A stretch of 51,044 nucleotides of DNA from a virus: positions 1 to 51,044 of the IMG/VR virus record IMGVR_UViG_3300017771_000014; one strand, given 5' to 3'. The notes beneath the pieces were generated by a model that saw only the letters and a program-made list of their open reading frames with translations, was not told the origin of the DNA and did not search any database. Of the stretch, positions 2,735 through 37,820 are shown one piece after another. The stretch's first letter is position 1, and each line of letters opens with the position of its first letter. Both the position numbers and the translations under genes were made by a program.

Positions 2735-5572
2735 ATGGCGAGAAAGGTTTTTCCTAGTAATCCAAATACTAACGATGTTTTTACCTCAGGTAGAGGTAAA
2801 AAATTCCTGTGGAATGGTAAAGTTTGGAAACGAACTCAGGACACTAATGTAGAGTCTATGACTCTAGACTCTAGTGCTGATGAGAAACTTGCACTGCATG
2901 GAAGTGATAATCCGACGATACGCTTTAGAGAAGGATCTAACGATAAGGGTAATCTCCATTGGAAGGCATCCACTGGAGAGATGAGACTGGTTAATGAAGA
3001 ATCATCTCAAGAACTTAGACTCGGATCCAGTGGCGTAACAGTAACAGGTGACTTAGATGTTACTGGAAACCTTGAAGTTACTGGAACCACAACCTTTAAT
3101 GGTGGAACATTAACTCTTGGTGATTCTGCTACGGATAATGTTGTATTCGGCGCGGACGTTAACTCTAGCATTACTCCTAATACTGATGATACTTATGATT
3201 TGGGTTCATCATCTAAAGAATGGCGCAATCTCTATATTGATGGGACTGCAAATATTGATACATTAAATGCTGATTCTTCTACTTTAACCACTGTTGATAT
3301 TAATGGTGGTAGTATTGATGGTGCTAGGATTGGTTCTAACTCTGCTTCTTCTGGTGCATTTACAACTTTATCTGCAAGTAGTGCAGCAACTTTTAATGGT
3401 AACGTTGATCTAGGTAACGCAACTAGCGACACCATCACCGCTACAGGACGTTTTGATAGTGATCTAGTTCCTAGTACAGACAGTGCTAATGCTCTGGGTA
3501 CTACTGCTCTACGATGGTCTAATCTTTTTATTGATGCTGCTACAGTTACTGACGATGTTTCTATTGGTGGCAACCTGGAAGTCATCGGTAATGCTAATAT
3601 CACTGGAACTCTAACATATGAAGATGTAACTAATATTGATTCTGTTGGTATTGTCACTGCTCGCTCTGGTCTTGTTGTAAGTTCTGGTGGTGCTAACATT
3701 ACTGGTGGTATCACGGGTGCTCTGACCGGTAATGTAACTGGTAACGCTGATACTGCAACAACCTTAGAAACTTCCAGAACTCTTTCCATCTCTGGTGCTG
3801 GTACTGGAAGTGCATCATTTAATGGTGGTGCAAATGCAGACATAGCGTTAACCCTTGCAGATAGTGGTGTTACTGCCGGAACTTATGGTTCTAGTTCTGC
3901 TATTCCCGCTATTACTGTTGATGCAAAAGGTTTAGTCACTTCTGCAAGTACGACTGCTATTGATAGTACGTCCATTAGTAATGGAGGTGAATCAGTTTCA
4001 GTTTCAAGTGGTGGTCAAATCACATCTAGTGCAAACCACGACTTCTCATCGGGCATTGATGTTGCTGGAAACATAACTCTTGGTGATAATGATGAAATTC
4101 GATTTGGTGATGATAATGATGCCAAAATCAACGTTGATGGCAGTCAGAACTTCGTTATGCAAGGTAATGGAACCACATATTTAAGAGGTTCTACTGTTAT
4201 TATTGGTGCCAATGGTGGTTCTGGTGGATTTGAGACTGCAATTAGAGTTACTGAGGTTAGTTCTACTACATCTCAAGTAGAACTTTATTATGATAATTCT
4301 TTAGTTCTTGAAACTGTTAGTACTGGTGTTGATCTAACAGGTAATCTTACAGTTAGTGGCACTGTTGACGGTCGTGACATTGCTACCGATGGTTCAAAAC
4401 TAGATGGTATTGAAGCATCAGCAGATGTAACTGACGCAACAAACGTCAATGCAGCCGGTGCTGTGATGAACAGTGATACTAGTACTGGATCTATGAGTTT
4501 TGTTGTTGATGAAGATAATATGTCTTCCAACTCAGCAACAAAAGTTCCAACCCAACAATCGGTCAAAAATTATGTTGATACTGAAGTTGCTGGTGTTATT
4601 GACTCTGCACCTGGAGCACTTAATACACTAAATGAGTTAGCAGCAGCTCTTGGTGATGATGCAAGTTTCTCCACAACAGTAACTAATAGTATTGCTACTA
4701 AGTTACCAAAATCTGGTGGTCAGATGACAGGGAACATAACGTTCTCTGGGTCACAAACTGTTGATGGAAGAGATTTATCTTCTGATGGTTCAAAACTAGA
4801 TGGTATTGAGTCAGGTGCAACTGCAGATCAAACTGCTGCTGAGATTCGTTCATTAGTTGAGTCTGCATCTGATTCCAATGTATTCACAGATGCTGATCAT
4901 AGCAAACTAAATGGTATTGCTGCAAGTGCTACTAACGTCACCAACAACAACCAAATTACTAACGGTGCTGGTTATATCACTGGGTTCGATATAACTACGC
5001 AGACAGATAGTAAGTACCTAAGGTCTAATACTGCTGACACTGCCTCTGGTGACATCACCTTCTCTGGTGGTGCCGGTGCAGTGAGTATCGCCGCCGGTAG
5101 CGACATACGTTTTACCTCTGGTAACTGGACTGGAGATTATGCAGGCAAGATCCAGTATCACTCCAACCACATGTACATCCAGTACAACAGCAACGTTTAC
5201 TTTCGGAACTCTGGTGGTTCCAATGTTGCTAATATTGACAATTCAGGCAACCTGGGCGTCTCTGGTCAAGTCACTGCAAGTTCTGATGTAAGACTTAAGA
5301 AAAATATTACCACAATTGATAATGCTCTTGATAAAGTTCTCAACTTACGTGGTGTAGAGTTTGATTATAAAGAGAATGATGTACATTCTATTGGTGTCAT
5401 CGCACAAGAGGTTGAGGAAGTCTTGCCAGACCTGGTTCATACCGATGAAGAAGATAATTTTAAATCAGTTGCTTATGGTAACTTGACTGCTGTTCTTATT
5501 GAAGCAGTTAAGGAACTAACTGCTGAAGTTAACACACTTAAAGCAGAACTAAATACAATTAAAGGAGAATAA
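2735..5572 (+). CDS. Large tail fibre protein with C-terminal S74 chaperone domain
   Basis: The 945 aa protein begins with MARKVFPSNPNTNDVF, a short attachment-like N-terminus, then many beta-rich repeats containing VTGDLDVTGNLEVTG-like strings and two DGRDIATDGSKLDGIE-like units (near 4365 and 4760). The Peptidase_S74 domain occupies about the last 110 residues: SDVRLKKNITTIDNALDKV, FDYKENDVHSIGVIAQEVE, and a final coiled coil. It lies behind a late promoter and is probably a virion fibre used in host recognition. Its end is nearly the same as that of the preceding fibre, so the two may share a folding module or exchange tips by recombination. Confidence 0.9.
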   Translation: MARKVFPSNPNTNDVFTSGRGKKFLWNGKVWKRTQDTNVESMTLDSSADEKLALHGSDNPTIRFREGSNDKGNLHWKASTGEMRLVNEESSQELRLGSSGVTVTGDLDVTGNLEVTGTTTFNGGTLTLGDSATDNVVFGADVNSSITPNTDDTYDLGSSSKEWRNLYIDGTANIDTLNADSSTLTTVDINGGSIDGARIGSNSASSGAFTTLSASSAATFNGNVDLGNATSDTITATGRFDSDLVPSTDSANALGTTALRWSNLFIDAATVTDDVSIGGNLEVIGNANITGTLTYEDVTNIDSVGIVTARSGLVVSSGGANITGGITGALTGNVTGNADTATTLETSRTLSISGAGTGSASFNGGANADIALTLADSGVTAGTYGSSSAIPAITVDAKGLVTSASTTAIDSTSISNGGESVSVSSGGQITSSANHDFSSGIDVAGNITLGDNDEIRFGDDNDAKINVDGSQNFVMQGNGTTYLRGSTVIIGANGGSGGFETAIRVTEVSSTTSQVELYYDNSLVLETVSTGVDLTGNLTVSGTVDGRDIATDGSKLDGIEASADVTDATNVNAAGAVMNSDTSTGSMSFVVDEDNMSSNSATKVPTQQSVKNYVDTEVAGVIDSAPGALNTLNELAAALGDDASFSTTVTNSIATKLPKSGGQMTGNITFSGSQTVDGRDLSSDGSKLDGIESGATADQTAAEIRSLVESASDSNVFTDADHSKLNGIAASATNVTNNNQITNGAGYITGFDITTQTDSKYLRSNTADTASGDITFSGGAGAVSIAAGSDIRFTSGNWTGDYAGKIQYHSNHMYIQYNSNVYFRNSGGSNVANIDNSGNLGVSGQVTASSDVRLKKNITTIDNALDKVLNLRGVEFDYKENDVHSIGVIAQEVEEVLPDLVHTDEEDNFKSVAYGNLTAVLIEAVKELTAEVNTLKAELNTIKGE
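5468..5517 (+). repeat. 50-bp repeat, copy 2, in fibre chaperone domain
   Basis: Second copy of the 2566-2615 segment, with one mismatch in 50 (TATAGTAAC versus TATGGTAAC). It lies in the last part of the S74 domain of the second fibre. Confidence 0.8.
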
Positions 5573-6233: not shown

Positions 6234-7238
6234 ATGCCAGTAGATGTAAATAATTTCGCAAAGATTGCGATTGAAGGTGGTGGTAGTGTGCATCCTTTAG
6301 TCATCCCCTCAAGTCACTTGAAGGGTCCTTCACTAACAAACCCTTGTGTGTATAATGATAATGGGAAGATTTTAGTTAATCTTCGCAATATTAACTATAC
6401 ATTGTATCATGCGGAAAAGAAAAAATACGAGCACCATTGGGGTCCGTTAGTATACATTCACCCTGAGAATGACATGCATCTCAGGACTTGGAATGTCATG
6501 TGTGAAATGGATTCTCAGATGAGAATCAAATCATATAATCATGTTGATACTTCTAAGTTTCCTGACAAGCAACTTTGGGACTTCGTTGGTCTTGAAGATT
6601 GTCGGATCGTTAGATGGGACGGTAAACTTTATATGACTGGAGTCCGTAGAGATTTGGATCCTACTGGAAGAGGTAGGATGGAGTTATCTGAAGTTGAATT
6701 TGTTGATGGAAAGGTTGTTGAAGTAGCACAGTATCGCATCCCCACTCCCGGAAGTCATGTTGACGAGGGTTCATACTGTGAAAAGAATTGGATGCCAATT
6801 CTGGATATGCCATATCATTTCATTAAGTGGACTAATGGAACTGAGGTCGTTCGTTTTGACCTGGAAACGAAACAAACCGAGAAAGTAGTTTTGACTGATT
6901 TTGTGGATCATGGTACAATGGATCTTCGGGGTGGATCACAAGTTATTCCTTTTGGAAATGATGGACATAGATTCTGCCTCACTCATGAAACTCATTTAAA
7001 ATGGAGTGATGCCGGTAGGAAGGATGCGACTTACAGGCACCGATTTATCGTTTGGGATAAAGATTGGAACATTGTAAAGATCAGCAGATTATTCTCATTT
7101 TTTAATGCTGAGATTGAATTTGCTGTCGGTATGTGTGAGAGTGGCAATGATTATTTGATTACCACTGGATTCCAAGACAATGCTGCATATCTCTTGAAAG
7201 TTTCTAAGGACTTCGTTCGTGATTTTATTTTTGAATGA
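6234..7238 (+). CDS. Beta-propeller glycosidase/phosphorylase-like protein (GH130/GH43-like fold)
   Basis: The 334 aa protein has repeated blades and the signature FVGLEDCRIVRWDGKLYMTG around residues 117-136. A GLED-R strand of this type is typical of five-bladed propeller enzymes that act on oligosaccharides (GH130 mannoside phosphorylases, GH43/GH32). Other blades carry HVDEGSYCEKNWMPI and DLRGGSQVIPF. There is no signal peptide. Its stop overlaps the start of a putative glycosyltransferase by 4 bases, placing it in the glycan operon. It may cleave or phosphorolyse a glycan, or be a sugar-binding propeller; the exact family is inferred from the motif only. Confidence 0.6.
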   Translation: MPVDVNNFAKIAIEGGGSVHPLVIPSSHLKGPSLTNPCVYNDNGKILVNLRNINYTLYHAEKKKYEHHWGPLVYIHPENDMHLRTWNVMCEMDSQMRIKSYNHVDTSKFPDKQLWDFVGLEDCRIVRWDGKLYMTGVRRDLDPTGRGRMELSEVEFVDGKVVEVAQYRIPTPGSHVDEGSYCEKNWMPILDMPYHFIKWTNGTEVVRFDLETKQTEKVVLTDFVDHGTMDLRGGSQVIPFGNDGHRFCLTHETHLKWSDAGRKDATYRHRFIVWDKDWNIVKISRLFSFFNAEIEFAVGMCESGNDYLITTGFQDNAAYLLKVSKDFVRDFIFE

Positions 7239-7951
7239 AAGTAGCGGTATGTATTTCTGGGGGTATTAGATATCCTCACATTGGGTTGGAAAGTATAAAA
7301 AATGTATCTTCTGATGACATCACCATCTTTATTCATACGTGGAGAGTTGGTGATACGGGAGATTTTATTTCTTCCCTTGCGGATACTCAGTATAAAGAGT
7401 TAGATAAGACTATAACTAATGATCTTAGTGTGGTTAATTGGTATCCATATACTATACTCAATCTCGAAGACTTTTCCTATAGGAAAATTGGATTTGAAAA
7501 CCAAAAAAAGGCGCTAAAATTCTCCGGCCAAATTCGGGATGATATAGGTCCAATAAGTATGCATTACTCAATTCATGCTGCTAATGAATTGAAGAAGCAA
7601 TATGAACGTGAAAATAGCATGAAATTTGATTGTGTTATTAGAATGCGTTTCGATAGTGACTTTGAGGGGAAAATGTTAGATGTATCTAAATGTTCTGATG
7701 GTTTATACATTCCTGAAGGTGAAGACTGGTTGGGTGGTATAAATGATCAATTTGCTTTAGGGTCTTCTGAGAGTATGGATATATACTCTAATCTTATTAA
7801 CAATCTTGAATCGCTTCAAGATGGTGATTATCATCCTGAGTCTCTTTTGAGAAACTATTTGAATAAACAGAATGTAAAAGTTGAAAGATTTGATTTTTGT
7901 GTTAGAATCAATAATAAGATTGATTTTCGTCGAGTAATGTTTGGAGAGTAA
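7235..7951 (+). CDS. Putative GT-A type glycosyltransferase (paralogue family of three)
   Basis: The 238 aa protein starts MKVAVCISGGIRYP, contains FIHTW near residue 34 and a VIRMRFDSDFEG segment with a DSD triad at 140-142, then GGINDQFALGSSESMDIYSN and HPESLLRNYL. A DxD-like acidic triad after a hydrophobic strand is typical of GT-A glycosyltransferases. The same layout recurs in the genes at 34112-34828 and 36499-37212. The last domain of the 1026 aa protein (WavE-like) shows a similar arrangement. It is coupled by ATGA overlap to the upstream propeller gene and abuts the nucleotidyltransferase. The donor and acceptor are unknown. Confidence 0.6.
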   Translation: MKVAVCISGGIRYPHIGLESIKNVSSDDITIFIHTWRVGDTGDFISSLADTQYKELDKTITNDLSVVNWYPYTILNLEDFSYRKIGFENQKKALKFSGQIRDDIGPISMHYSIHAANELKKQYERENSMKFDCVIRMRFDSDFEGKMLDVSKCSDGLYIPEGEDWLGGINDQFALGSSESMDIYSNLINNLESLQDGDYHPESLLRNYLNKQNVKVERFDFCVRINNKIDFRRVMFGE

Positions 7952-8668
7952 ATGAACATTGTTATACCCATGGCTGGGGAGGGCACAAGATTCCCCAGAG
8001 ACAAATATCAGGTCCCTAAACCTCTAATTGAGATTGAAGGGAAACCTATGGTTCAGCATATGGTTGAATCGATGGATCTTGATGGTAGGTATCATTTTGT
8101 TATTCGTCAAGATTCATTTTACTTTCAAATATATGAACTATTAAAAAGTATTACTCCCGACTGTAAAATTGTAACGGTTGAGGAAACTACCGGTGGTCCT
8201 GCTTGCACATCTCTTTTATTTGAACGAGATATCTCAAACGATCAGGAGTTGGTCATTGCAAATTGTGATCAAATAATGTGGTGGGATTCTGGACTTTTCT
8301 TGCAAACTGCTAGATATTATAAGTATGACGGTGTTTTTGTGACTTACACGTCCGATACGCCAAAAAATAGTTATTGCAAAATTAATAAAAATGGTCTAGT
8401 ATATGAAGTGAAGGAAAAGGAAGTCATTAGCGACATTTCTTTGACTGGTATTCATTATTGGCGCAAGGGTTGTTATTTTGTTGAAAGTGCTAAAGCAATG
8501 ATTGATGTAAATGATACTGCACCAAATGGTGAATTTTATGTTGCACCAACTTATAATCACATGATTAATAAGTTTGGAAAGAGAGTTGGTATTCATCATA
8601 TTCCCAACTGGCAACACAATCCAGTTGGGGTTCCAGATGATCTTAGTACATATATTAAAAAACTATGA
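7952..8668 (+). CDS. Sugar (or small-molecule) nucleotidyltransferase
   Basis: The 238 aa protein begins MNIVIPMAGEGTRFPRDKYQ followed by VPKPLIEIEGKPMVQH, the NTP_transferase signature (GxGTRF...PKP) that binds an NTP and a sugar phosphate. FERDISNDQELVIANCDQIM carries the metal-binding Asp near residue 108. The size is that of single-domain capsule and LPS nucleotidyltransferases (compare the Campylobacter capsule group) rather than the larger RmlA. The gene starts immediately after the preceding stop and overlaps the cupin gene by 4 bases. It probably activates a phosphorylated sugar or alcohol for surface glycan assembly; the substrate cannot be read from sequence. Confidence 0.8.
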   Translation: MNIVIPMAGEGTRFPRDKYQVPKPLIEIEGKPMVQHMVESMDLDGRYHFVIRQDSFYFQIYELLKSITPDCKIVTVEETTGGPACTSLLFERDISNDQELVIANCDQIMWWDSGLFLQTARYYKYDGVFVTYTSDTPKNSYCKINKNGLVYEVKEKEVISDISLTGIHYWRKGCYFVESAKAMIDVNDTAPNGEFYVAPTYNHMINKFGKRVGIHHIPNWQHNPVGVPDDLSTYIKKL

Positions 8669-8991
8669 AAGTTACAAGATTATCTGATTATACTAGAGGA
8701 TGGGTCATTGGGGACTTTGAACCATCTATCCTAAGAACGGCAGACTTTGAAGTTGCTGTGCTTAATCACGTAAAAGGTGAAAAGTGGCCTTCACATTATC
8801 ATAAAGAAGCAGTAGAATATAATGTCTTGGTTTCTGGTAAAATGATAATGCATGATCAAGAACTCAATGCTGGTGATGTATTTGTCCTAGATAAATACGA
8901 AGTGGCAAATCCAATCTTTTTAGAAGATTGCACAGTTGTTTGTATAAAAACACCCTCCATACCATCGGACAAATTTGAGGTTACAAAATGA
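8665..8991 (+). CDS. Small cupin protein
   Basis: The 108 aa single cupin barrel has motif 1 as HYHKEAVEYNVLVSGKM (residues about 46-62) and motif 2 around LNAGDVFVLDKYE. The two His and the Glu of motif 1 are metal-ligand positions of cupin isomerases, epimerases and binding proteins. It overlaps the nucleotidyltransferase by 4 bases and the RuBisCO-like gene by 4 bases, so the three are translated together and probably act on the same substrate. It may be a sugar isomerase or epimerase or a sensor; not settled. Confidence 0.7.
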   Translation: MKVTRLSDYTRGWVIGDFEPSILRTADFEVAVLNHVKGEKWPSHYHKEAVEYNVLVSGKMIMHDQELNAGDVFVLDKYEVANPIFLEDCTVVCIKTPSIPSDKFEVTK

Positions 8992-10226
8992 AATTTTTTA
9001 GAGAACTTACTGATTTAGAACAAAATCGTTGCGTAGTTGCTACATTTTATATTGAAACATATGAAAGTGTTGGTAATCTTCGTGATGCTGCTTGGGCACT
9101 TGCAATTGGGCAAAGTGTAGGTAATCCGAAAGTCCGTAATCGTTGGGAAAGTGATGAACTTTTCGAACTCGCATCTTGTGTCATTTATGATGATGAGGAT
9201 AAACTAACTAACATGACTTCTGGTGAAGTTAAAATTGGTTTCCCTAAAGTGAACACTGACTGGGAAGGTGATGGAATTTCTCACCTGATGTGTCAGTTGA
9301 TGGGTGGACAACTCGATATTGATGTATTCAAAACTTGCCGACTTAGGAAACTTGACTTTCCTGCAGATGTGGAATCACATTTCCTAGGACCCAAGAATGG
9401 TATCGATGGTATTCGTAAATTTGTTGATCGTCATGATAAACCACTCTCTGGTGCTATTGTAAAACCAAAGACTGGTATCTCTCCTGAAACTCTTTCAGAG
9501 ATGGTAAAAGAACTACTTGATGGTGGTGTAGATTTTATCAAAGAGGATGAGATTCTATCAAATCCATCTTTCTGCCGTCTTGAGGATCGTGTAGAACTCA
9601 TTTCTAACATTGTTAATAATTGTGGTCGAGGCGTCATTTACTGTTTCTGTATAAATGGTGATCACCACACTATCCTTGATCGTGCAAAGTTTGTTGCAGA
9701 TAATGGTGGCAATGGTATTCATATTAATTTCTGGAGTGGACTTGGCGTCTATAACTCTGTAAGAAAGATGGATTTGCCACTATTTGTTCACTATCAGAAG
9801 AGTGGAGACAAGATTCTGACTGATAAGCGTCATAACTTTGGTATTGATTGGAGCGTTCTTTGTGATCTTGCAGGTCTATGTGGTGTTGACACTATCCATG
9901 CTGGTATGTGGGGTGGATACTTGAGTGATGATGAGGTAGAACTGAAAACTGTGATGGATACTTTACATCGAAGAAATGTTTTACCCGCACTCAGTTGTGG
10001 TATGCATCCAGGAATTGTTAACACCACTGCTGAAAAATTTGGAACTGACTTCCTGGCAAACTGTGGTGGAGCAGTTCATGGACACCCTGGTGGCACTCTC
10101 TCTGGTGCATTAGCAATGCGTCAGGCCATTGATAAGACTCCTGGGGCAGAATTCCGTGCTGCCATTGATAAGTGGGGATATGAGACTGGTGGAGGATCTC
10201 TCCCAGAGTGGGTTTTAGAGTTCTGA
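8988..10226 (+). CDS. RuBisCO-like protein (form IV RLP) encoded by phage
   Basis: The 412 aa protein covers the full large-subunit fold. The N-terminal domain spans residues 1-140 and the barrel domain 150-412. GAIVKPKTG (155-163) supplies K159 and K161, matching RuBisCO K175 and K177. GGVDFIKEDE (179-188) supplies K185, D187 and E188, matching the carbamylated K201, D203 and E204. H268 and H304 match H294 and H327; S336 and GG (360-361) match S379 and the phosphate-binding glycines. Loop 6 reads HAGMWGGYLS: the lysine that matches K334 and is needed for CO2 addition is replaced (Y311), and the H298 position is not His. It should therefore enolise or otherwise process a ketose-type phosphate rather than fix CO2. 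ATGA overlap with the cupin ties it to the nucleotidyltransferase operon. Family membership is firm; the reaction is unknown. Confidence 0.88.
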   Translation: MKFFRELTDLEQNRCVVATFYIETYESVGNLRDAAWALAIGQSVGNPKVRNRWESDELFELASCVIYDDEDKLTNMTSGEVKIGFPKVNTDWEGDGISHLMCQLMGGQLDIDVFKTCRLRKLDFPADVESHFLGPKNGIDGIRKFVDRHDKPLSGAIVKPKTGISPETLSEMVKELLDGGVDFIKEDEILSNPSFCRLEDRVELISNIVNNCGRGVIYCFCINGDHHTILDRAKFVADNGGNGIHINFWSGLGVYNSVRKMDLPLFVHYQKSGDKILTDKRHNFGIDWSVLCDLAGLCGVDTIHAGMWGGYLSDDEVELKTVMDTLHRRNVLPALSCGMHPGIVNTTAEKFGTDFLANCGGAVHGHPGGTLSGALAMRQAIDKTPGAEFRAAIDKWGYETGGGSLPEWVLEF

Positions 10227-10227
10227 T

Positions 10228-10713
10228 ATGATTATTATTGCCCATCGTGGAAATATAGACGGAATAAATCCTGAAAGGGAGAATAGTCCAGACTATATTG
10301 ACGAAGCGTTGGAAATGGGTTATGATGTAGAGATTGATATAAGATCAAAAAATAAAAGACTTTATCTTGGTCATGATAAGGCACAATACCCAGTAAATCT
10401 TGGATGGTTGTATAAAAATAGAGAAAGACTTTGGATTCACTGCAAAGATCGTGAATCTTTAGAGTTTTGCTCTTCTACAGTTATGAATTTGCATTATTTC
10501 TGGCATGATCGTGACAGTTATACACTAACAAGTAAAGCAATTGGTTGGGTTTTGATTGGACATTATTCATATCCAAATTCAATCATCGTATTACCAGAGT
10601 CCATTTCTTTATACAATAAATATGAGGGTAAATACGATAGGATTCTTGAGTCTCTGGGAATCTGTACAGATAAATGTAATTATTATCGGAAAGAATTAAA
10701 TGAAGTGGTCTGA
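10228..10713 (+). CDS. GDPD/PLC-like phosphodiesterase (TIM-barrel) domain protein
   Basis: The 161 aa protein opens IIIAHRGNIDGINPERENSP, then MGYDVEIDIRSKNKRLYLGHD. These are the HRG...EN, E-x-D and GHD motifs of glycerophosphodiester phosphodiesterases. It is shorter than bacterial GDPDs (about 240 aa) and ends after LWIHCKD and the later strands, so it is a compact form. It starts 1 base after the RuBisCO-like stop and overlaps the next gene by 14 bases. It could hydrolyse or transfer a phosphodiester-linked polyol in the same pathway; activity is inferred from the motifs. Confidence 0.7.
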   Translation: MIIIAHRGNIDGINPERENSPDYIDEALEMGYDVEIDIRSKNKRLYLGHDKAQYPVNLGWLYKNRERLWIHCKDRESLEFCSSTVMNLHYFWHDRDSYTLTSKAIGWVLIGHYSYPNSIIVLPESISLYNKYEGKYDRILESLGICTDKCNYYRKELNEVV

Positions 10714-11332
10714 AGATTTAGTAAAAGATATTAGAACTGGAACGCCTTTTGATGATTCTGATGGTGGGGTTCCACATCCGAGAGGATATGGTCATACTTT
10801 TGATGCAAACGGTACAGCAGTTTATCCTAAAGAAGTTACTGACTGTAATCGTCTTGCTCTGATGCAGAACTTTATGACTATTCGTGATAACTGCAATGCC
10901 ATTCTTGAAATTGGAATTGGGCGAAACTTGCAAGAGTCATTTTGTTATGTTTTCTTCAATAGTAAGAAACCAGAGTGTAAGTATGTTGGACTTGATATTG
11001 AAGATCGCTCATTTTTGAATGGTGAAGCACCTAATGTTCATACCTTTATGGACGATAGTTCAAACTATGATGATAATCTTGAAAGATTTAAGAGTCTAGG
11101 AATCAAAAAATTTGATTTCATTTTTATTGATGGTTGGCATAGTATCAATCAAGTTTTGAGAGATTGGGAATATAGTAATCTTCTGTCTGATCATGGCATC
11201 ATTGGATTCCATGACACCTCTTGTCATCCTGGACCACATAATTTTATTAATAACCTAGATACTGACAAATGGGAAGTTGTTCCAAACTGCTGCCCAGATG
11301 ATTGGGGTATTGGATTTGTTCGCAAAAAGTGA
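10700..11332 (+). CDS. Class I SAM-dependent methyltransferase (Methyltransf_24-like)
   Basis: The 210 aa protein has a Rossmann-type motif I AILEIGIGRN, motif II acidic end YVGLDIEDRS, and FDFIFIDGWHSINQVLRDWE then GIIGFHDTS, typical of Methyltransf_24 and cephalosporin-hydroxylase-like proteins found in LPS and capsule clusters. The FIDGWHS segment often holds a metal ligand in this group. It lies in the glycan operon directly before the large glycosyltransferase. It probably methylates (or possibly hydroxylates) a sugar; the target is unknown. Confidence 0.7.
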   Translation: MKWSEDLVKDIRTGTPFDDSDGGVPHPRGYGHTFDANGTAVYPKEVTDCNRLALMQNFMTIRDNCNAILEIGIGRNLQESFCYVFFNSKKPECKYVGLDIEDRSFLNGEAPNVHTFMDDSSNYDDNLERFKSLGIKKFDFIFIDGWHSINQVLRDWEYSNLLSDHGIIGFHDTSCHPGPHNFINNLDTDKWEVVPNCCPDDWGIGFVRKK

Positions 11333-11335
11333 GTT

Positions 11336-14300
11336 ATGAATGTATCGTTGATTTGTGCTTGTAAGAATCGTTACGATGCCTTACGAGTGTCTTTGAGTTC
11401 GTGGTTGGCATTTGATGAAATTAAGGAGATTATTATTGTTGATTGGAGTTCTGATAACTCAATCACTGATCTCCTAAATCTTGATGGTCGAATTAAAATC
11501 ATTGAAGTACCTAATCAAAAATACTTTAATCAACCACAACCGTTGAATTTAGCACTCAGTCAAGCAACTGGGGATTATATTTTGAAGGTTGATTCTGATT
11601 ATATTATTAATCCATATTACAACTTCTTTGATAAGTATACTCCTGGAGATGGTGAATTCCTTTCAGGAAAATCGAGTTATGATCCTCCAGAGGTTTTTGA
11701 TGAATCAATAGGTGCATATGTTTGCAACTTTGGTGATATGGTAGTCGAAGAGATACGTGATTACTGTAATAATTACAGTCCTTGGTTCATGTATCTTACT
11801 GGTCTTTTGATGCTCAAACGAAAAGACATGATTGCCGTTGGTGGATATAATGAAAATCTTGGAAAATATTATTCTTATGAAGATGATGAGATCTTCCGTA
11901 GATTAAGTCTTTATGGTTTAAAGCAGAATAAAATTTTCTGTGACCACTATTTGACACATCTTCCCCACCAAGATATCAAAAGAATTGAAAATTTTGAGGG
12001 ATATGATTCAGTAGATAGGCAAAACTGCATCAATAATATGAGGTCTTCATATTCTACTGAGGGTGAAACAATCGCTCAGGCAGAGTATGCAATGGCATCA
12101 TTCCATACCTCAAGAAATAAAGAGTTTACTGATCAAGTTACAGAGTATAAGGTAGATAATAAAACTTTTTGGGAAGTTGAGTCCCTTGGAGACAATCACT
12201 ATAAAGCAAAAATGAAATCATCATCAAAACTGGAAAACTTTCCCACTTCTTACTATATTAGTTTAGAGGAAAGTGTAGATCGTCAAGAAAGTCTCAAGAG
12301 TCAATTCTCTGAGTATGGTGTTACCAATTTGAATGGAATTATTTCCAAGCGATTTGATGAATGTGATGATAAAGTAATTGGTGAACAACTCCATATTCTT
12401 GATGGTGGAACCATTGGATGTAATGTTTCTCACTTGAAGGCAATTAAACATTGGTATGAAAATACGAGTGAAGACTATGGATTCTTCTGTGAAGATGATT
12501 TATCACTGGAACCAGTTCAATATTGGAACTTTACTTGGAGTGATTTTGTAAATAATCTTCCATCAGACTGGGGATGTGTACAACTTTGCTCTATTCGATC
12601 AACTCAAATTGACGTAAAAATGCGAGAAAGATCAATGTATGATTGGTCTGTGACTGCATACATTATTACTCGTGATTATGCTAAGAAAATTATTGATCGT
12701 TATATCCGTGAAGATAGTTTTGATTTGACTATTCCTGGCACGATCTTTTATCCTATGCCAGAAACTGTTCTTTTCTATGATATTGGAAAGGTATATGCAG
12801 TTGATCTATTTGTTGAAGATCAAGAATTTAATTCTACATTTACTGAAACTGCTGGAATTGAAGGTGGTAGAAAAGATCATCATGTTGAAAGTTATGAACA
12901 TGTTATAAATTGGTGGAAAAGTAATTCACAAACCACTGCATATCAACTTTTGGGAATTCGTGATCCAGAGGAACAATTTACTGGAACTACTGATCTTGAA
13001 AAGATATTAGTGACATACTCCATGGATACGGAGAATGCAAAGAATAACTTTGATATGGGTGTTTGGTATGAAAATGATGGTCACACTGCACCAGCACTTT
13101 CATATTATCTCAGAGCAGCAGAAAGATCTGAAGATATCGATCTTACATATGAATCATTGATTCGTGGTTCTTATTGCTATGAGAAGCAGGGGACTCGTGA
13201 TGGAAGTTCTAAATCAATGCTACAACAAGCATTGATGGTTCATCCACATAGACCAGAAGCATATTTTCTTTTAGCAAGATTTGCTGAAAAGCGTGAATGG
13301 TGGCAAGATGCGTACATTTATGCATGTCAAGGATTAGAATATGTTGATCATGAATATCGTGATCTGTATACTGATGTTGATTATTCTGGTTCATATGCAC
13401 TATACTTTATTAAGTCACTATCTGGATGGCGTTGGGGTAAAGTTGATGAGGCAAGATCAATTTTAGTTGATCTGAAGCATAATTATGATCTCAATGATCA
13501 CTACAGACGTATTGTTGAAAATAATATTTCAGCATTTGGAGTTAAAGATGAACAGTATTATATCAAAAACTTCCTTGAGCAACGACGTGTTGAACAGGAA
13601 GAGCGATATGGAAAAGTCGCTGAGGTAACCGAAAAAAAGATTGATGTCGTACTTCAAGGGAAGTACGACTCAACAACAAGAGAAGTAATTAAATCTTACT
13701 TGCAGTTGCCATTTATTAATAATATCATTGTTTCTTGTTGGAAAACTGATGAGGAAGTTGAGATGGGTGATAGGATCAAAGTTGTTCGCAATGATGATCC
13801 AGAGACATGGGGGACTGACAATAGAAATCTTCAAATCGTTTCATCACGTAATGGTTTAAATCGTGTTACTACCGATGTCGCTGTTAAGATGAGGAGCGAC
13901 CAGATCTATACTCAAGAAAGTATGGAACGTATGATGAAGTTCTATTTTGATAACTGTGAACATGACAAGCAACTATTTGTTGCTGGAATGTATCCAAATT
14001 TACTGTTCCATCCCAGAGATCATGTATTCTGGGGTAAAACTAATTCACTAAAAAATCTATTTGGTACTCCACTTGAGATTGATGGATTTGGTGATAAGAG
14101 TAAGTTACCAAAGTCAGAATTATGGAAATATTATAAGTATTTTATTCGTACCGAGACATATATTGGTGGACACTACTGTTCCAGAATTGATCCTAGAGTA
14201 AAGAGACTCTTTGATGAACCACAAAAGTACCTCTATGATGAAGCGCCAGAGTGGAACTACGCTAAAGAACTGAGTGACGAGGTTGGTCGTAGAGTATTCA

Positions 14301-14416
14301 AATCATTCCCTAAGAGTGGAATTGATCTAGAGTGGCCCAAGAAGCAACTTGCTTCATATCCATACGATGATCAGGAGCAAGGATACTTTGAGCAATGGTA
14401 TGAGAATGGGTGTTGA
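11336..14416 (+). CDS. Multi-domain glycosyltransferase: GT2 - GT25-like - TPR - WavE-like
   Basis: The 1026 aa protein shows four parts. Residues 1-260 form a GT2 domain (LICACKNRYDALRVSLSSW; VDSD at 85-88; galactosyltransferase-like GGYNENLG and YEDDE). About 305-540 form a GT25-like domain (YYISLEESVDRQESL; GCNVSHLKAIKHW; CEDDLSLEP). About 560-760 form a helical TPR-like region (ALSYYLRAAER, SMLQQALMVHPHRPEAYFLL). About 777-1026 form a WavE-like domain (IDVVLQGKYDSTTREVIKSY, VAVKMRSDQIYT). The GT25-like part resembles the separate genes at 38970 and 39806. It follows the methyltransferase by 3 bases. A strong promoter starts at its stop codon. It probably adds two or more sugars to a phage or cell-surface glycan. 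Confidence 0.8.
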   Translation: MNVSLICACKNRYDALRVSLSSWLAFDEIKEIIIVDWSSDNSITDLLNLDGRIKIIEVPNQKYFNQPQPLNLALSQATGDYILKVDSDYIINPYYNFFDKYTPGDGEFLSGKSSYDPPEVFDESIGAYVCNFGDMVVEEIRDYCNNYSPWFMYLTGLLMLKRKDMIAVGGYNENLGKYYSYEDDEIFRRLSLYGLKQNKIFCDHYLTHLPHQDIKRIENFEGYDSVDRQNCINNMRSSYSTEGETIAQAEYAMASFHTSRNKEFTDQVTEYKVDNKTFWEVESLGDNHYKAKMKSSSKLENFPTSYYISLEESVDRQESLKSQFSEYGVTNLNGIISKRFDECDDKVIGEQLHILDGGTIGCNVSHLKAIKHWYENTSEDYGFFCEDDLSLEPVQYWNFTWSDFVNNLPSDWGCVQLCSIRSTQIDVKMRERSMYDWSVTAYIITRDYAKKIIDRYIREDSFDLTIPGTIFYPMPETVLFYDIGKVYAVDLFVEDQEFNSTFTETAGIEGGRKDHHVESYEHVINWWKSNSQTTAYQLLGIRDPEEQFTGTTDLEKILVTYSMDTENAKNNFDMGVWYENDGHTAPALSYYLRAAERSEDIDLTYESLIRGSYCYEKQGTRDGSSKSMLQQALMVHPHRPEAYFLLARFAEKREWWQDAYIYACQGLEYVDHEYRDLYTDVDYSGSYALYFIKSLSGWRWGKVDEARSILVDLKHNYDLNDHYRRIVENNISAFGVKDEQYYIKNFLEQRRVEQEERYGKVAEVTEKKIDVVLQGKYDSTTREVIKSYLQLPFINNIIVSCWKTDEEVEMGDRIKVVRNDDPETWGTDNRNLQIVSSRNGLNRVTTDVAVKMRSDQIYTQESMERMMKFYFDNCEHDKQLFVAGMYPNLLFHPRDHVFWGKTNSLKNLFGTPLEIDGFGDKSKLPKSELWKYYKYFIRTETYIGGHYCSRIDPRVKRLFDEPQKYLYDEAPEWNYAKELSDEVGRRVFKSFPKSGIDLEWPKKQLASYPYDDQEQGYFEQWYENGC

Positions 14417-17671: not shown

Positions 17672-18613
17672 ATGTCTGATATTATTGTCACAGGTGGTGC
17701 TGGGTTCATTGGTAGCAACTTTTTACATTATCTAAAGGGAGTAACAGATCAAAAGATCATTGTTCTTGATAATTTAACATATGCTTCAGATATTGGATTT
17801 TTACCAGCAACATCACAATTTGAATTTGTCTGGTGTGACATTACAAATGAGAACCATGTAGATCACATATTCAAAAAATATAAACCAAAGAAAGTATTCC
17901 ATTTTGCTGCTGAGAGTCATGTAGACAACTCCATTAAGAACTATAGACCATTTCTTGAATCTAATGTAGTTGGAACAATCAATCTACTGAATGCAAGTCT
18001 ATCAATTGATATTGAGAAGTTTCATCACATTTCTACAGATGAAGTATACGGAAGTCTTGGATTGAATGATGATAATATATTCACTGAAGAGACTCCATAT
18101 GACCCTAGGAACCCTTACAGCGCGAGTAAGGCAGCAGCAGACCATTATGTGAAGACATGGCACAATACCTACGGTCTTCCATATATTATTACTAATTGCA
18201 GTAATAATTATGGTAAGCATCAACATATTGAGAAACTGATTCCTAAAGTGATCTATAGGGCACTGAAGGATGAGGTAACTTACATGTATGGTGGTGGACA
18301 TCAGATCCGTGATTGGTTACATGTATGGGATCATGTTAGTGCCGTATGGACTCTGGAAGAGCATGGCATTTTAAATGATAATTTCAATATTGGTGGTGAC
18401 TGTGAATTATCTAATATGAATGTAACTAAGATGATATTAGATATTATGGGCAAGTCACATGACCTTGTAGGGGTCTCTGAGGGTCGTCCAGGGCAGGACT
18501 TGCGTTATGGTATGAGTTTTGCTAAACTGGAGAAACTTACTGGTTGGAGACCAAACATAGAGTTTAAAACTGGACTTGAAGAAACTGTTGATTGGTATTT
18601 GAAACAATGTTGA
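17672..18613 (+). CDS. rfbB: dTDP-glucose 4,6-dehydratase family (extended SDR)
   Basis: The 313 aa protein has TGGAGFIGSNF (NAD-binding glycine motif, 7-17), the active-site triad TDE at 122-124 in ISTDEVYGS, and the catalytic YxxxK at Y149 and K153 in PYSASKAA. ITNCSNNYG and the QIRDWLHVWDH region match the substrate-binding part of RmlB/RfbB. It converts an NDP-glucose to the 4-keto-6-deoxy sugar, the entry step to most deoxysugars. It is a little short of the usual 340-360 aa. It overlaps the next SDR by 7 bases, with the RfbH-type dehydrase next. Either dTDP- or another NDP-glucose could be used; the motif set favours the RmlB type. Confidence 0.88.
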   Translation: MSDIIVTGGAGFIGSNFLHYLKGVTDQKIIVLDNLTYASDIGFLPATSQFEFVWCDITNENHVDHIFKKYKPKKVFHFAAESHVDNSIKNYRPFLESNVVGTINLLNASLSIDIEKFHHISTDEVYGSLGLNDDNIFTEETPYDPRNPYSASKAAADHYVKTWHNTYGLPYIITNCSNNYGKHQHIEKLIPKVIYRALKDEVTYMYGGGHQIRDWLHVWDHVSAVWTLEEHGILNDNFNIGGDCELSNMNVTKMILDIMGKSHDLVGVSEGRPGQDLRYGMSFAKLEKLTGWRPNIEFKTGLEETVDWYLKQC

Positions 18614-19431
18614 GTGTGTATGGTGGAAAAACTGGGTGGATAGGGTCCAAGTTTGTTAACATGTATGGTCCTGGGGTTGTACTCCAAGAACGGGGTGAGT
18701 TTAAACCTAAAACTAAAGATATCCTTTACTTTGTATCTACGACACATAATTATAATATTCATGATGATGGACATTTCTGTGATGATGTGGATCTGAATTT
18801 AAAGTATCTGTGTCAAGTTCTTGAACACTGTAAATCTGAAGATATTACCTTTAACTTTATTAGTTCTTGGTTTGTTTATGGTAAAACATCAGATATGCCA
18901 GCGACTGAAGAGTCTCCATGTAATCCAACTGGATTCTATTCTATTACTAAGAAGTGTGCCGAAGATCTGATTAAGTCATTTTGTGGAACCTTTGGAGTTA
19001 AGTATAGGATTCTTAGATTGTGTAATGTCTTGGGGGATGATCCAAGAGCATCGAAGCGAAAGAATGCAGTTTCTTGGATGATTCAACAACTTAAAGAAGA
19101 TAAACCGATCAGTCTATACGACAATGGTTCTCATAAGAGAGACTTCCTCCATGTTGATGATGTATGTGAGGCAATTTGGGTGGTTACTAATAGAGGTGAA
19201 CTCAATGAGTGTTACAATATTGGTTCAGGACAGGGAACAACCTGCACAGAAATCGTGTATAATGCCTTTGAGAGACTACAATCTAAATCTCATATAACTA
19301 ACATTGATCCACCAAAATTCCACGATCAAGTCCAAACAAAACACTTCTGGATGGACACTAGTAAACTAAGTAAACTGGGATGGAAACCACGATTGAGTAC
19401 CTTTGAAATTGTGAAAAAATTATGTCTTTGA
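18607..19431 (+). CDS. NAD-dependent epimerase/dehydratase (SDR)
   Basis: 274 aa from ATG 18607, which overlaps the dehydratase stop. GGKTGWIGSKFV is a divergent TGxxGxxG dinucleotide motif, and SSWFVYGKT with YSITKK supplies the Ser and YxxxK of the SDR active site. KRDFLHVDDVCEAI and YNIGSGQGTT are typical extended-SDR segments. In context it most likely reduces or epimerises the keto sugar made by the dehydratase and the 3-dehydrase. It overlaps the next gene by 10 bases. Confidence 0.8.
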   Translation: MLSVYGGKTGWIGSKFVNMYGPGVVLQERGEFKPKTKDILYFVSTTHNYNIHDDGHFCDDVDLNLKYLCQVLEHCKSEDITFNFISSWFVYGKTSDMPATEESPCNPTGFYSITKKCAEDLIKSFCGTFGVKYRILRLCNVLGDDPRASKRKNAVSWMIQQLKEDKPISLYDNGSHKRDFLHVDDVCEAIWVVTNRGELNECYNIGSGQGTTCTEIVYNAFERLQSKSHITNIDPPKFHDQVQTKHFWMDTSKLSKLGWKPRLSTFEIVKKLCL

Positions 19432-20738
19432 ACACTAAAGTATCCGATTTTATCAGTGGTCTTCGTGATGACGGCGAAGATCTTTTTCCATATCTTGCAA
19501 ATAAAGATTGGGAATCGGGTAAACCAATTTACTATTCTGGTCCATACTGGGATGATAAAGAAGTTGCCGCGGCCATCACAACCCTACTCTCAGGTAAGTG
19601 GTTACCAGCAGGAGAAGAGGTGAATAAATTTGAGAGAGCATTTTCAAAAAGGTTTGAGTTTGATTACTCGGTCATGGTCAACTCTGGATCTTCTGCTAAC
19701 CTCGTAATGGTTGCTGCTCTGAAGAAATATTTTGGTTGGCAAGATGGAGATGAAATTATTGTTTGTGCTTGTGGATTTCCCACAACAATCAATCCCATCA
19801 TTCAGAATGGTTTGAAACCAGTTTTTGTAGATATTGATTATACCGATTTGAACTGGGATTTGAATCAGATTAAATCAAAAATCACTACAAGAACTAAGGC
19901 AGTATTTTCTTCACCCGTATTAGGTAATCCATATGATTTCGATGAATTTTTTAGTCTTCTTGACCGATATAACATTCATTATATTGCTGACAACTGCGAT
20001 TCTCTCGGTAGTAGGTGGAAAGGAGAATTTCTAACAAAGAGGGCAGTAGCAGCATCTTGTTCATTCTACCCAGCACATCATATCTCTACTATTGAGGGTG
20101 GTATGGTATCATCTAATATTGAAGAGGTTGTACAGATTGCACGTTCATTTGCCTGGTGGGGTCGTGGATGTTTCTGTGTGGGAGCACAGAATAAACTTGC
20201 TAATGGTGTTTGTGGTAATCGATTTGATCGTTGGTTGGAAGGTTATGATCGTGATGTAGATCATAAATATGTTTTTGGTGTTCAAGGGTATAACCTAAAA
20301 CCAGCGGATCTTCAGGGTTCAATTGGTCTTGTTCAACTTGAAAAACAAGATGAAATTCATCAGAAACGTCGTCATAACAAACAGAGACTTCATGAAATAT
20401 TTTCAGATATTCCTGGAGTAAGAGTGATTGATGAACGTGAAGATGCTGAAACCTCTTGGTTTGGCGTTCCTATTGTATATGAAGATGGTAAGCATTCTCT
20501 TGTAAAGCATCTTGAGGATAATGGTATTCAGACAAGGAATTACTTTGCTGGAAATATCCTTATGCATCCTGCTTATCGTCATATTGACGACGCTAAGAAT
20601 TATCCAAATGCTTGTAAAGTATTAGATAACGTATTTTTTGTCGGATGTTCCCCTGTCATTACCGACGAAATGATTGACTATATTGCTGAGATTGTGTTAC
20701 AATACAGGAGGAATACCGTAATTCATCATCGAGTATGA
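19422..20738 (+). CDS. rfbH: RfbH/AscC-type NDP-4-keto-6-deoxyglucose 3-dehydrase
   Basis: The 438 aa protein has the DegT/DnrJ fold, but the PLP-Lys is replaced by His (SFYPAHHIST, H220), the mark of the 3-dehydrases that make 3,6-dideoxyhexoses using PMP. The [2Fe-2S] ligands are also present: C192 then X57, C250, X1, C252, X11, C264. In Yersinia E1 the spacing is C-X57-C-X1-C-X7-C, so the last loop is 4 residues longer here. HKYVFGVQGYNLKPADLQG is the conserved downstream block. The gene follows the 4,6-dehydratase and SDR, forming a deoxysugar cassette. No E3-like reductase is seen in the window, so reducing power may come from host or phage ferredoxin. Confidence 0.9.
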   Translation: MSLNTKVSDFISGLRDDGEDLFPYLANKDWESGKPIYYSGPYWDDKEVAAAITTLLSGKWLPAGEEVNKFERAFSKRFEFDYSVMVNSGSSANLVMVAALKKYFGWQDGDEIIVCACGFPTTINPIIQNGLKPVFVDIDYTDLNWDLNQIKSKITTRTKAVFSSPVLGNPYDFDEFFSLLDRYNIHYIADNCDSLGSRWKGEFLTKRAVAASCSFYPAHHISTIEGGMVSSNIEEVVQIARSFAWWGRGCFCVGAQNKLANGVCGNRFDRWLEGYDRDVDHKYVFGVQGYNLKPADLQGSIGLVQLEKQDEIHQKRRHNKQRLHEIFSDIPGVRVIDEREDAETSWFGVPIVYEDGKHSLVKHLEDNGIQTRNYFAGNILMHPAYRHIDDAKNYPNACKVLDNVFFVGCSPVITDEMIDYIAEIVLQYRRNTVIHHRV

Positions 20739-30128: not shown

Positions 30129-31352
30129 ATGATGAATACAACCTTTTGTATGGCACCATGGGTAAATATTGGAGTTGTTCCCAATGGAGAATATACATTG
30201 TGTTGCGTTTCCACAAATTATGACGATGGGGGGATTGAAGGGGATCCTTTTCTGGATCAAAGAGAATTTTGTGAGGGTGATAAAGAAAATAAATTATATA
30301 TTGGATCTCTCCATGATAATACTTTGGAGGAAATATGGAATAATGATAAGATGAGAGACATCCGAATTAAGATGTTGAAAGGTGAACCTGTGGGTAATTG
30401 CGAGGTATGTTATTATTCTGAGTCAATTACTGGATTATCTGAGAGAACTCGATATGAACGTATATATTATAATTCACATAAAGATAAAGTATTACAAACT
30501 AAACCTGATGGATCTGTACCGTTTGAACCAGTGTCGTGGGATCTTCGTTTAACAAATACCTGTAATTTTAAATGTAGGGACTGTTGTACTGATTTGAGTT
30601 CTAGTTGGGAAGAGGAATCCCGAAGATTAAATGTAGATGTAAGTGCTCCAAAAACTGACGAACAAAAAGTTCTCAATGAACTTGAACCAATATATGATTA
30701 TGTAGAAGAAGTTTATTTTGCTGGTGGAGAACCTTTAATTTCAGATCATCATTATCATATAATTGATAAATTATTGGAAAAAGATTTACGCCCAACCATA
30801 AGATACAATACAAATTTAAGTACTCTCACTTACAAAGGTAGAGATATTATTGATATTTGGAAAAACTTCCCAAATATTGAACTTTTTGTTAGTTTTGATG
30901 GTATTGGAAAACGTGGAGAATTAATTCGAAAGGGATTTGATTCTAAAAGATTCATAAAAAATATACTAAGAATACAAAAAGAATTACCACATCTTCAAAT
31001 AAATTATAATTTTGTTGTTTATATTTTGAATGCATATCATTTTGTGGATGCACATGAATTTATGGTAGATCATGGAATACTTCGCAGTTTTGATTCTATA
31101 TCATTCACGTTATTGAAAGATCCACAATATTTAAGGATTACCACATTAGATTCGGAAAGTAAAAAAGAAGTTCTTGAAATAATTACAAAGAGTAGATTTC
31201 GTTCAAATTATGACATGATATATAAATTTTTATTGAAGGAAGATAATAGCAGTTATATTCCACAATTTAAATTCATGACTGATGGTTTGGATGCAGTTAG
31301 GAATGAAAATACATTAGAAATTATTCCAGAGTTGCATAGATTATTGAAATGA
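30129..31352 (+). CDS. Twitch-domain radical SAM protein (copy 1)
   Basis: The 407 aa protein opens with a twitch/SPASM-like block (FCMAPWVNIGVVPNGEYTLCC; cysteines C7, C25, C26, C91, C94), probably holding an auxiliary Fe-S cluster. The radical SAM core has C145-x3-C149-x2-C152 in TCNFKCRDCC and YFAGGEPL as the GGE motif. The twitch part precedes the core, the reverse of most SPASM enzymes. It shares this plan with the gene at 37801-38973. These proteins are frequent in cyanophages with unknown substrates; a peptide or glycan target is possible. Its stop overlaps the sulfotransferase-like gene by 4 bases. Confidence 0.85.
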   Translation: MMNTTFCMAPWVNIGVVPNGEYTLCCVSTNYDDGGIEGDPFLDQREFCEGDKENKLYIGSLHDNTLEEIWNNDKMRDIRIKMLKGEPVGNCEVCYYSESITGLSERTRYERIYYNSHKDKVLQTKPDGSVPFEPVSWDLRLTNTCNFKCRDCCTDLSSSWEEESRRLNVDVSAPKTDEQKVLNELEPIYDYVEEVYFAGGEPLISDHHYHIIDKLLEKDLRPTIRYNTNLSTLTYKGRDIIDIWKNFPNIELFVSFDGIGKRGELIRKGFDSKRFIKNILRIQKELPHLQINYNFVVYILNAYHFVDAHEFMVDHGILRSFDSISFTLLKDPQYLRITTLDSESKKEVLEIITKSRFRSNYDMIYKFLLKEDNSSYIPQFKFMTDGLDAVRNENTLEIIPELHRLLK

Positions 31353-37212: not shown

Positions 37213-37820
37213 TTTGCGTGTAACCAACCAGTGCAAATATACTTTCTTTGATTTTTTGGTGGATAACCTCTATGCAAGAATGTCCATCCTGATGGAAATA
37301 ATACAATCCTTCCTTCTTTAGATCTTACTCTTGTTCCATCTATAAATTCAGTATATCCATCCTCTTCAATCGTGTTGAGATACCATATAAAGGTCATAGA
37401 TCTCTGTTCTTGATTTTGAACAACATTATCATCATGGTGCCACCTATATCCTGAATCTGGTTCATACCTTTGAATTTGATACCCAGTATCATAATATTCA
37501 TGCCAACCCACTTCAAATGTGGGAGCAATATCAGCGATATATTGTTCATACTCATGTAAACATTCAGTCAAAGAGTTTGAAAATACTTCATCTTCTTTTG
37601 GCCAATCTCCACTCATCGTAATCATTACATCCATGGTGTCTTTGATGTCTTTCCTTAGACCAGCACCTACATTCCCTGGTTTCATAGTTTTATCATGTTC
37701 AAACCTTTCGATGCAGTGTTTACAGAATTCTGAAGTTAAGACATTATCCTTTACCCATATAAAATCACTGATACTTGCATATCTTTTTAATCTTTCTTGG
37801 TCATTTTTTAACATAATCAA
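37209..37820 (-). CDS. 2OG-Fe(II)-type dioxygenase (prolyl 4-hydroxylase-like)
   Basis: 203 aa. QIQRYEPDSGYRWHHDDNVV contains the HxD site, then SMTFIWYLNTIEEDGYTEFI, and IVLFPSGWTFLHRGYPPKNQ with the distal His and KYICTGWL for 2OG. The family includes P4H-type hydroxylases. It overlaps the radical SAM gene by 20 bases, so these two are likely co-expressed, and the two enzymes may act on a common substrate. Confidence 0.8.
   Translation of the reverse strand: MIMLKNDQERLKRYASISDFIWVKDNVLTSEFCKHCIERFEHDKTMKPGNVGAGLRKDIKDTMDVMITMSGDWPKEDEVFSNSLTECLHEYEQYIADIAPTFEVGWHEYYDTGYQIQRYEPDSGYRWHHDDNVVQNQEQRSMTFIWYLNTIEEDGYTEFIDGTRVRSKEGRIVLFPSGWTFLHRGYPPKNQRKYICTGWLHAK

Follow-up and report, generated by a model that had tools for sequence, protein, structure and literature searches.

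To our knowledge, the RuBisCO-like proteins (RLPs) with known roles serve salvage or catabolism. Members of the YkrW/MtnW group, the 2,3-diketo-5-methylthiopentyl-1-phosphate enolases of methionine salvage (structures 2zvi and 2oek), do not carboxylate; they have the carbamate site, Gly in place of Glu60, Lys at position 123, Ser at position 334 instead of the loop-6 Lys and a retained His294, and they lack Lys177. In the DeepYkr group, represented by RLP1 of Rhodopseudomonas palustris (3qfw) and the 5-methylthioribulose-1-phosphate (MTRu-1P) 1,3-isomerase of Rhodospirillum rubrum, the RLP carries Pro at the Trp66 position and neighbours a cupin that acts as a methylsulfurylase in methionine salvage; we know of no nucleotidyltransferase partner of a DeepYkr RLP. 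The R. palustris pair, rlp1 (RPA2169) and the neighbouring cupin gene RPA2170, belongs to methionine salvage (PMC5893883). The OiaX/nonphoto RLPs (3nwr, 3-oxo-isoapionate-4-phosphate decarboxylase) are catabolic, act on sugar-acid phosphates, keep His294 and Lys334 and lie mostly beside a four-carbon-acid sugar kinase; OiaX has Gly at position 123.

A further clade, IV-GOS, was reportedly named in Tabita 2007. It is named as an unassigned RLP group from an ocean survey in PMC10173188, and the texts consulted mention neither a viral origin nor a nucleotidyltransferase link; the 2007 GOS paper placed many RuBisCO homologues on new branches. In viruses, rbcL has been reported as a carbon-fixation gene in several surveys (PMC8506154, PMC13390420, PMC12615777). 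A landfill study grouped viral RbcL with 'RbcL-like' proteins and also recorded rbcL among 100,000 random IMG/VR viruses (PMC12607003), and a mine-soil study reported carboxylation for one co-expressed viral rbcL.

Here we analyse an RLP gene in a 51,044-base stretch of viral DNA (IMG/VR virus record IMGVR_UViG_3300017771_000014, positions 1 to 51,044), the whole of which is called the window below. A sequence-only reading had recognised in it a full-length RuBisCO large-subunit homologue, linked to nucleotidyltransferase and cupin genes in a viral glycan setting, and this description holds.

An RLP gene within a phage glycan gene block

The RLP gene and its neighbours are arranged as follows:
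7235-7951, plus strand: DUF7796-family protein, probable glycan enzyme (238 aa; Pfam 2.1e-9, phrog_13607)
7952-8668, plus strand: sugar-phosphate nucleotidyltransferase of the NTP_transf_3/GlmU/RmlA type (238 aa; phrog_3980, 6e-57)
8665-8991, plus strand: putative small single-domain cupin (108 aa; phrog_24762, weak Cupin_7 match at 4.5e-4)
8988-10226, plus strand: RLP (412 aa; clade signature E60G, N123G, H294Q, K334Y)
10228-10713, plus strand: mini-GDPD, glycerophosphodiester-phosphodiesterase-like (161 aa; phrog_34507)
10700-11332, plus strand: Methyltransf_24-type methyltransferase (210 aa; Pfam 1.7e-6)
11336-14416, plus strand: multidomain glycosyltransferase, GT2 + GT25 + WavE (1026 aa; Pfam WavE 1.4e-11, Glycos_transf_2 2e-9, Glyco_transf_25 3e-5)

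The cupin gene overlaps the nucleotidyltransferase gene upstream and the RLP gene downstream by four bases each, and the nucleotidyltransferase matches Pfam NTP_transf_3 just under the cut-off (1e-5). No RNA families or tRNAs were found in the window.

The RLP gene is genuine and kept under purifying selection. Its product matches Pfam RuBisCO_large at E = 9.3e-42, and comparison with those close viral homologues that give a finite dS yields dN/dS values of 0.04-0.07, so the protein has been maintained; a chance open reading frame or frameshift is ruled out by the same two results (E 9e-42 and dN/dS 0.04-0.07). Among PDB sequences, 99 match at E <= 1e-3, and all 60 of the 60 matches listed are RuBisCOs or RLPs. 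The AlphaFold model is confident (pLDDT 92.4, pTM 0.91) and has the RuBisCO fold: its best match among solved structures is the type III RuBisCO of Thermococcus kodakarensis (3a12, TM 0.86), a fold common to form III enzymes such as that of Pyrococcus horikoshii (2cwx), and form III enzymes rank highest, ahead of other RuBisCOs and 2oem, an MtnW enolase. Nothing RuBisCO-like was matched in the BFVD library of viral structures (best TMq 0.40), and no fusion of the RLP to any partner was found among the loci examined. Form III models are also the top RuBisCO match in NCBIfam; all RuBisCO models there lie far under cut-off (202.9 bits vs 497), as do those for MtnW (122 bits, cut-off 513) and OiaX (NF042437, 154 bits, cut-off 700).

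Elsewhere in the window, an RfbH-like CDP-sugar aminotransferase family protein (19422-20738; 3e-107, below cut-off) lies beside two NDP-sugar epimerases (17672-19431) in a second nucleotide-sugar block. Two radical-SAM-type proteins (30129-31352, and 37801-38973 on the minus strand) are encoded inside glycan gene blocks, the former with only distant phage relatives (20% identity, Vibrio phages). Separate parts of the protein encoded at 40630-41904 (minus strand) match PHROG families named 2OG-Fe(II) oxygenase and ferrochelatase, of which the latter label is doubtful.

Active-site residues

Residues were counted over the 110 clusters (90% identity) of the RLP family after alignment to RuBisCO numbering. 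In the window RLP, the alignment places four diagnostic elements:
9462-9470, plus strand: codons of K159-P-K161, equivalents of K175/K177
9540-9551, plus strand: codons of K185-E-D-E188, carbamate/Mg2+ site, equivalents of K201/D203/E204
9795-9797, plus strand: codon of Q270 at the His294 position, diagnostic of the clade
9918-9920, plus strand: codon of Y311 at the loop-6 Lys334 position

The window RLP reads KEDE (K185-E-D187-E188) where RuBisCO has KDDE (K201-D-D203-E204). Equivalents of Lys175, Lys177, Lys201, Asp203, Glu204, Ser379, Gly381 and Gly403 are invariant (110/110 clusters), with S336, G338 and G360/G361 of the window RLP aligning to S379, G381 and G403/G404; H304 corresponds to H327, which is His in 89 clusters and Gln in 21. 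All of these positions are held in common with form III RuBisCO, and at the residue level the clade has the predicted carbamate-site residues and Lys175 of RuBisCO forms I-III. Lys177 is retained as in true RuBisCOs, whereas the remaining RLP groups in the alignment have lost it.

Unlike form III RuBisCO, every cluster (110/110) has Glu60 replaced by Gly, Thr65 by Asn, Trp66 by Pro, Asn123 by Gly, His294 by Gln, Lys334 by Tyr and Gly380 by Cys. Loop 6 of the window RLP runs G-G-Y311, which bears out the earlier claim that the Lys needed for CO2 addition is missing. The same reading had correctly identified K159/K161, the KEDE block at 185-188, H304 and the phosphate-binding Gly/Ser, but its H268 does not correspond to His294: it matches the leading His of the HxHR motif, and the His294 position, two residues further on, is occupied by Q270. 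Further losses that it did not list are E60 (G41), T65/W66 (N46/P47) and N123 (G107). His is kept at position 294 in all reference RuBisCOs and RLPs aligned (form I, III, CPR-type, YkrW, DeepYkr, Photo and OiaX/nonphoto). The clade therefore lacks four residues of RuBisCO forms I-III (the loop-6 Lys334, Glu60, Asn123 and His294), and with a RuBisCO fold (TM 0.86) and essential residues replaced, the window RLP would classify as form IV in the broad sense.

A single, mostly viral clade

Scanning IMG/VR with the single RLP protein returned 245 relatives, and three further scans from divergent members returned overlapping sets of 166, 233 and 60. Together with one genome scan, these four scans gave the 110 clusters, of which 94 have viral and 16 cellular representatives. 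All nucleotidyltransferase-linked RLPs form one clade with 100/100 bootstrap/SH-aLRT support, present in 200/200 bootstrap trees and recovered by a quick tree method with 84 rows. The clade lies apart from forms I and III, CPR RuBisCO, YkrW, DeepYkr, Photo and OiaX/nonphoto RLPs, in a tree where form II is represented by CPR II/III-type sequences only and true form II/III-like RuBisCOs from the genome scan serve as outgroups; the RLP thus falls outside every RuBisCO clade included. The IV-GOS RLPs, considered here by description, could contain or equal the clade. Taken together, tree position, profile scores and residues indicate that the clade is neither RuBisCO nor YkrW, DeepYkr or OiaX, in keeping with the non-carboxylating RLP first suggested for the window.

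Cellular relatives from the genome scan are spread over SAR11, Legionella, Azospirillum, Patescibacteria, Verrucomicrobia, Elusimicrobia, a Sphingobacteriales MAG and nanoarchaea, and the protein that had seemed an isolated oddity is instead the phage branch of a widespread clade common to bacteria and archaea. Cellular copies are rare, occurring in 1/197 genomes sampled of the SAR11 order, 4/22 of the genus Legionella and 1/274 of the class Gammaproteobacteria (E <= 1e-60). A fifth Legionella match looks like a chorismate-synthase false positive and is left out of the genus count. Long contigs and isolate genomes (Legionella, Azospirillum and two SAR11 contigs, L084 of 232 kb and L095 of 167 kb) support true cellular copies, whereas the 3.3-kb contig of a Crocinitomicaceae MAG, whose RLP agrees with a viral one in the aligned columns, is probably of viral origin and was binned into the MAG. 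Divergent Bacteroidota PF00016 matches (L390-L407 and L409) belong to other RLP groups and lack the gene module described below; L408, fetched with that set, is a Legionella locus with RLP-NTP (NTP, nucleotidyltransferase).

A conserved module with a nucleotidyltransferase

The gene neighbourhood is conserved across the clade. Within 3.5 kb of the RLP, a nucleotidyltransferase, always of one family, is found in 106/110 clusters, the cupin in 72/110 and the mini-GDPD in 73/110. Of 97 RLPs whose flanks are long enough, 79 lie no more than 450 bp from a nucleotidyltransferase in the same orientation; for the remaining genes in these loci the figure is 87 of 1082 (8%). The window order is NTP-cupin-RLP-GDPD; elsewhere it is NTP-RLP in SAR11-like phages, RLP-NTP in Legionella and GDPD-RLP-cupin-NTP in Elusimicrobia and Azospirillum. 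As the order varies between lineages, it is the association that is conserved and not an inherited order. Four SAR11 loci (L092-L095) have a second, divergent nucleotidyltransferase across the RLP, giving NTP'-RLP-NTP. The other RLPs fetched mostly adjoin a four-carbon-acid sugar kinase, and no such kinase was recognised beside the window's clade in the loci examined.

The nucleotidyltransferase family profile finds the NDP-sugar pyrophosphorylase 4evw as its best PDB match (3.9e-36), followed by GlmU, RmlA and mannose-1-phosphate and heptose enzymes, which places it in this family; it is also closer to sugar-1-phosphate enzymes than to IspD. The family extends beyond the RLP clade, and RLP partners are not cleanly set apart in its tree, so the substrate of the RLP-partner nucleotidyltransferase may be only similar to that of its relatives. 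Since the 'other' rows of the tree include unlabelled partners from redundant loci, it is unusable as a co-phylogeny test. In the cupin, H44 and E51 are invariant and H46 nearly so, a His/Glu metal-type motif; PDB matches of the family profile are weak, mainly quercetinase and small sugar-isomerase-like cupins. The mini-GDPD has no Pfam match, and its invariant residues are H6-R7, E18-N19, E35-x-D37, G48-H49 and H71-x-K73. Its model (pLDDT 92; best match GDPD 7e0v, TMq 0.65, E 9e-4) places the HR, E-x-D and GH(D) catalytic motif on a shortened GDPD fold, so that 10228-10713 encodes a GDPD-like protein.

The same nucleotidyltransferase family occurs in the glycan cassettes of two isolated cyanophages in which no RLP was found. 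In Synechococcus phage SynMITS9220M01 (L114:5838-6995) it is fused to ribose-5-phosphate isomerase B (RpiB, Pfam 4.1e-33), annotated as 'phosphatase', directly upstream of a window-type cupin and near a window-type mini-GDPD. In Synechococcus phage S-SKS1 (L115:6001-7428) it is fused to DHBP synthase (RibB, 5.4e-65) in a glycan block near a transaldolase, and the record annotates only the DHBP synthase (riboflavin synthesis). HAD-NTP fusions in S-CAM9 and B23, and NTP-NTP fusions, also occur without an RLP. Ribulose 5-phosphate is acted on by both RpiB and DHBP synthase, and its bisphosphate by RuBisCO. On the simplest reading, the RLP would be an alternative to RpiB and DHBP synthase as the first step leading from the pentulose-phosphate pool to related nucleotidyltransferases.

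Viral carriers

Carriers of the RLP gene include T4-like phages, some of which are cyanophages. Of the contigs with the gene that were tested, 6/45 and 15/45 have the T4 capsid family gp23 and 7/45 the psbA/psbD family, and the 177-kb contig with the tree-sister of the window RLP has both gp23 and psbA-family genes. A chimeric or cellular origin is ruled out for the family by the occurrence of the module in scores of viral contigs and by gp23 and psbA/psbD. For the window it is rejected on phage-type tail fibres and a cyanophage-type helicase, which has 423 phage record matches, nearly all to cyanophages (best 54%). The window itself contains no capsid or psbA gene; we infer that it too derives from a T4-like phage, and the cyanophage label given to it at first is plausible in view of the sister contig and the helicase. 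No RLP was found in 50,697 isolated-phage records, a set from which records near the window were possibly left out. The two large proteins encoded at 421-2670 and 2735-5572 resemble tail fibres and have ends of the S74 chaperone type; collagen-like repeats occur in one of them.

Proposed function and alternatives

Based on residues and gene context, we consider it likely that the RLP clade acts in nucleotide-sugar (surface-glycan) synthesis and not in CO2 fixation, enolising or isomerising a ketose phosphate whose product the nucleotidyltransferase would activate. In terms of general RuBisCO chemistry, the residue pattern retains what is needed for Mg2+ binding and ketose phosphate enolisation and loses what is needed for CO2 addition and processing. 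The retained carbamylated-Lys/Mg2+ site, Lys175, Lys177 and P1 phosphate loops would make enolisation of a bound ketose phosphate possible, and because Lys334, His294, Glu60 and Asn123 are lost, no carboxylation, hydration or cleavage of the enediolate is expected. Re-protonation elsewhere would yield an isomerised or epimerised sugar phosphate, within this scheme probably from a pentulose phosphate; taken by itself, that specific substrate is a tentative assignment with less than even chances. The neighbouring nucleotidyltransferase would activate the product as an NDP derivative, to be used for a surface glycan by glycosyltransferases of the same block. The cupin would probably contribute another step, an isomerisation or a metal-dependent reaction, while the mini-GDPD would probably hydrolyse a phosphodiester. 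Counting against this scheme, roughly one cluster in three lacks the cupin, and a similar share lacks the GDPD. RuBisCO uses His294 in catalysis and every other RLP in the alignment keeps it, so its loss here could signal a reaction different from simple enolisation.

The same module could have another output, in which the RLP makes the phosphorylated precursor of a CDP-linked polyol or other phospho-alcohol that is then passed on by LicD-type phosphodiester transfer. In three Legionella species (L100, L102 and L103), a divergently oriented LicD-family gene (1e-42) adjoins RLP-NTP, which would be compatible with an NDP carrier that donates a phosphorylated group, and the frequency of the GDPD-like phosphodiesterase (73/110 clusters) points the same way. 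Yet LicD was found in Legionella alone, with no LicD motif in the first 80 viral loci; no polyol dehydrogenase was recognised in the module, and the affinity of the nucleotidyltransferase to sugar-1-phosphate enzymes over IspD also speaks against this output, which we regard as unlikely although the most probable of the alternatives. Methionine salvage, one of the roles raised initially, would resemble the MTA-isoprenoid shunt of R. rubrum and R. palustris, with the RLP as 5-methylthioribulose-1-phosphate 1,3-isomerase and the cupin as methylsulfurylase. The window does share the RLP-cupin adjacency of R. palustris and Pro at the Trp66 position. However, the viral clade is far from DeepYkr and has another active site (KEDE, xQK and Y334 in the window), without the signature D-D-H, A-H-P and R334; it is equally outside YkrW, whose Lys at position 123 it lacks. 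The cupin, unlike the nucleotidyltransferase, is missing from 38/110 clusters, and the gene block in the window is one for glycans, so that a salvage role is improbable.

A catabolic enzyme of the OiaX/nonphoto type, a decarboxylase or transcarboxylase of a sugar-acid phosphate, has slightly poorer prospects still: that group acts on phosphorylated sugar acids, the OiaX model does register the window RLP and Gly123 is shared, but the 154 bits fall far below 700, the RLP lies outside the OiaX/nonphoto clade with its retained H294 and K334, and a nucleotidyltransferase stands where the usual four-carbon-acid sugar kinase would be. Least credible of all is a true but divergent RuBisCO serving phage CO2 fixation, as the auxiliary metabolic gene reading of viral 'rbcL' in published surveys would have it. 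K175, K177, K201, D203 and E204 are all kept and form III models score best, but the replacement of Lys334, His294, Glu60 and Asn123 in every member, the low NCBIfam score and the separation from all RuBisCOs included argue strongly against it, and no phosphoribulokinase or other Calvin-cycle gene was recognised among the window proteins scanned.

Implications

On balance, we favour the view that nucleotide-sugar synthesis by this clade represents a new functional class of the RuBisCO superfamily, mostly in phages, that would supply a phosphorylated sugar for nucleotide activation and glycan decoration from a site with Gln294, Tyr334 and the carbamate/Mg2+ centre; it would be the first anabolic-glycan RLP known to us, and some viral 'rbcL' genes would encode the same enzyme. 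The size of the clade, its mostly viral membership and its tie to nucleotidyltransferases suggest that the RuBisCO scaffold has been put to biosynthetic use, and the natural substitutions offer a clean view of the RuBisCO site without His294 and Lys334. For marine microbes under phage infection, the module points to an unknown activated sugar.

The finding also bears on viral carbon fixation. Some published viral rbcL genes may belong to this clade; since the mine-soil study reported carboxylation by one co-expressed viral rbcL, not all such genes need do so. The Q294/Y334 signature provides a simple test for which viral rbcL genes can be real RuBisCO, and if our reading is true, some viral 'carbon-fixation' RuBisCO genes may have been misread.
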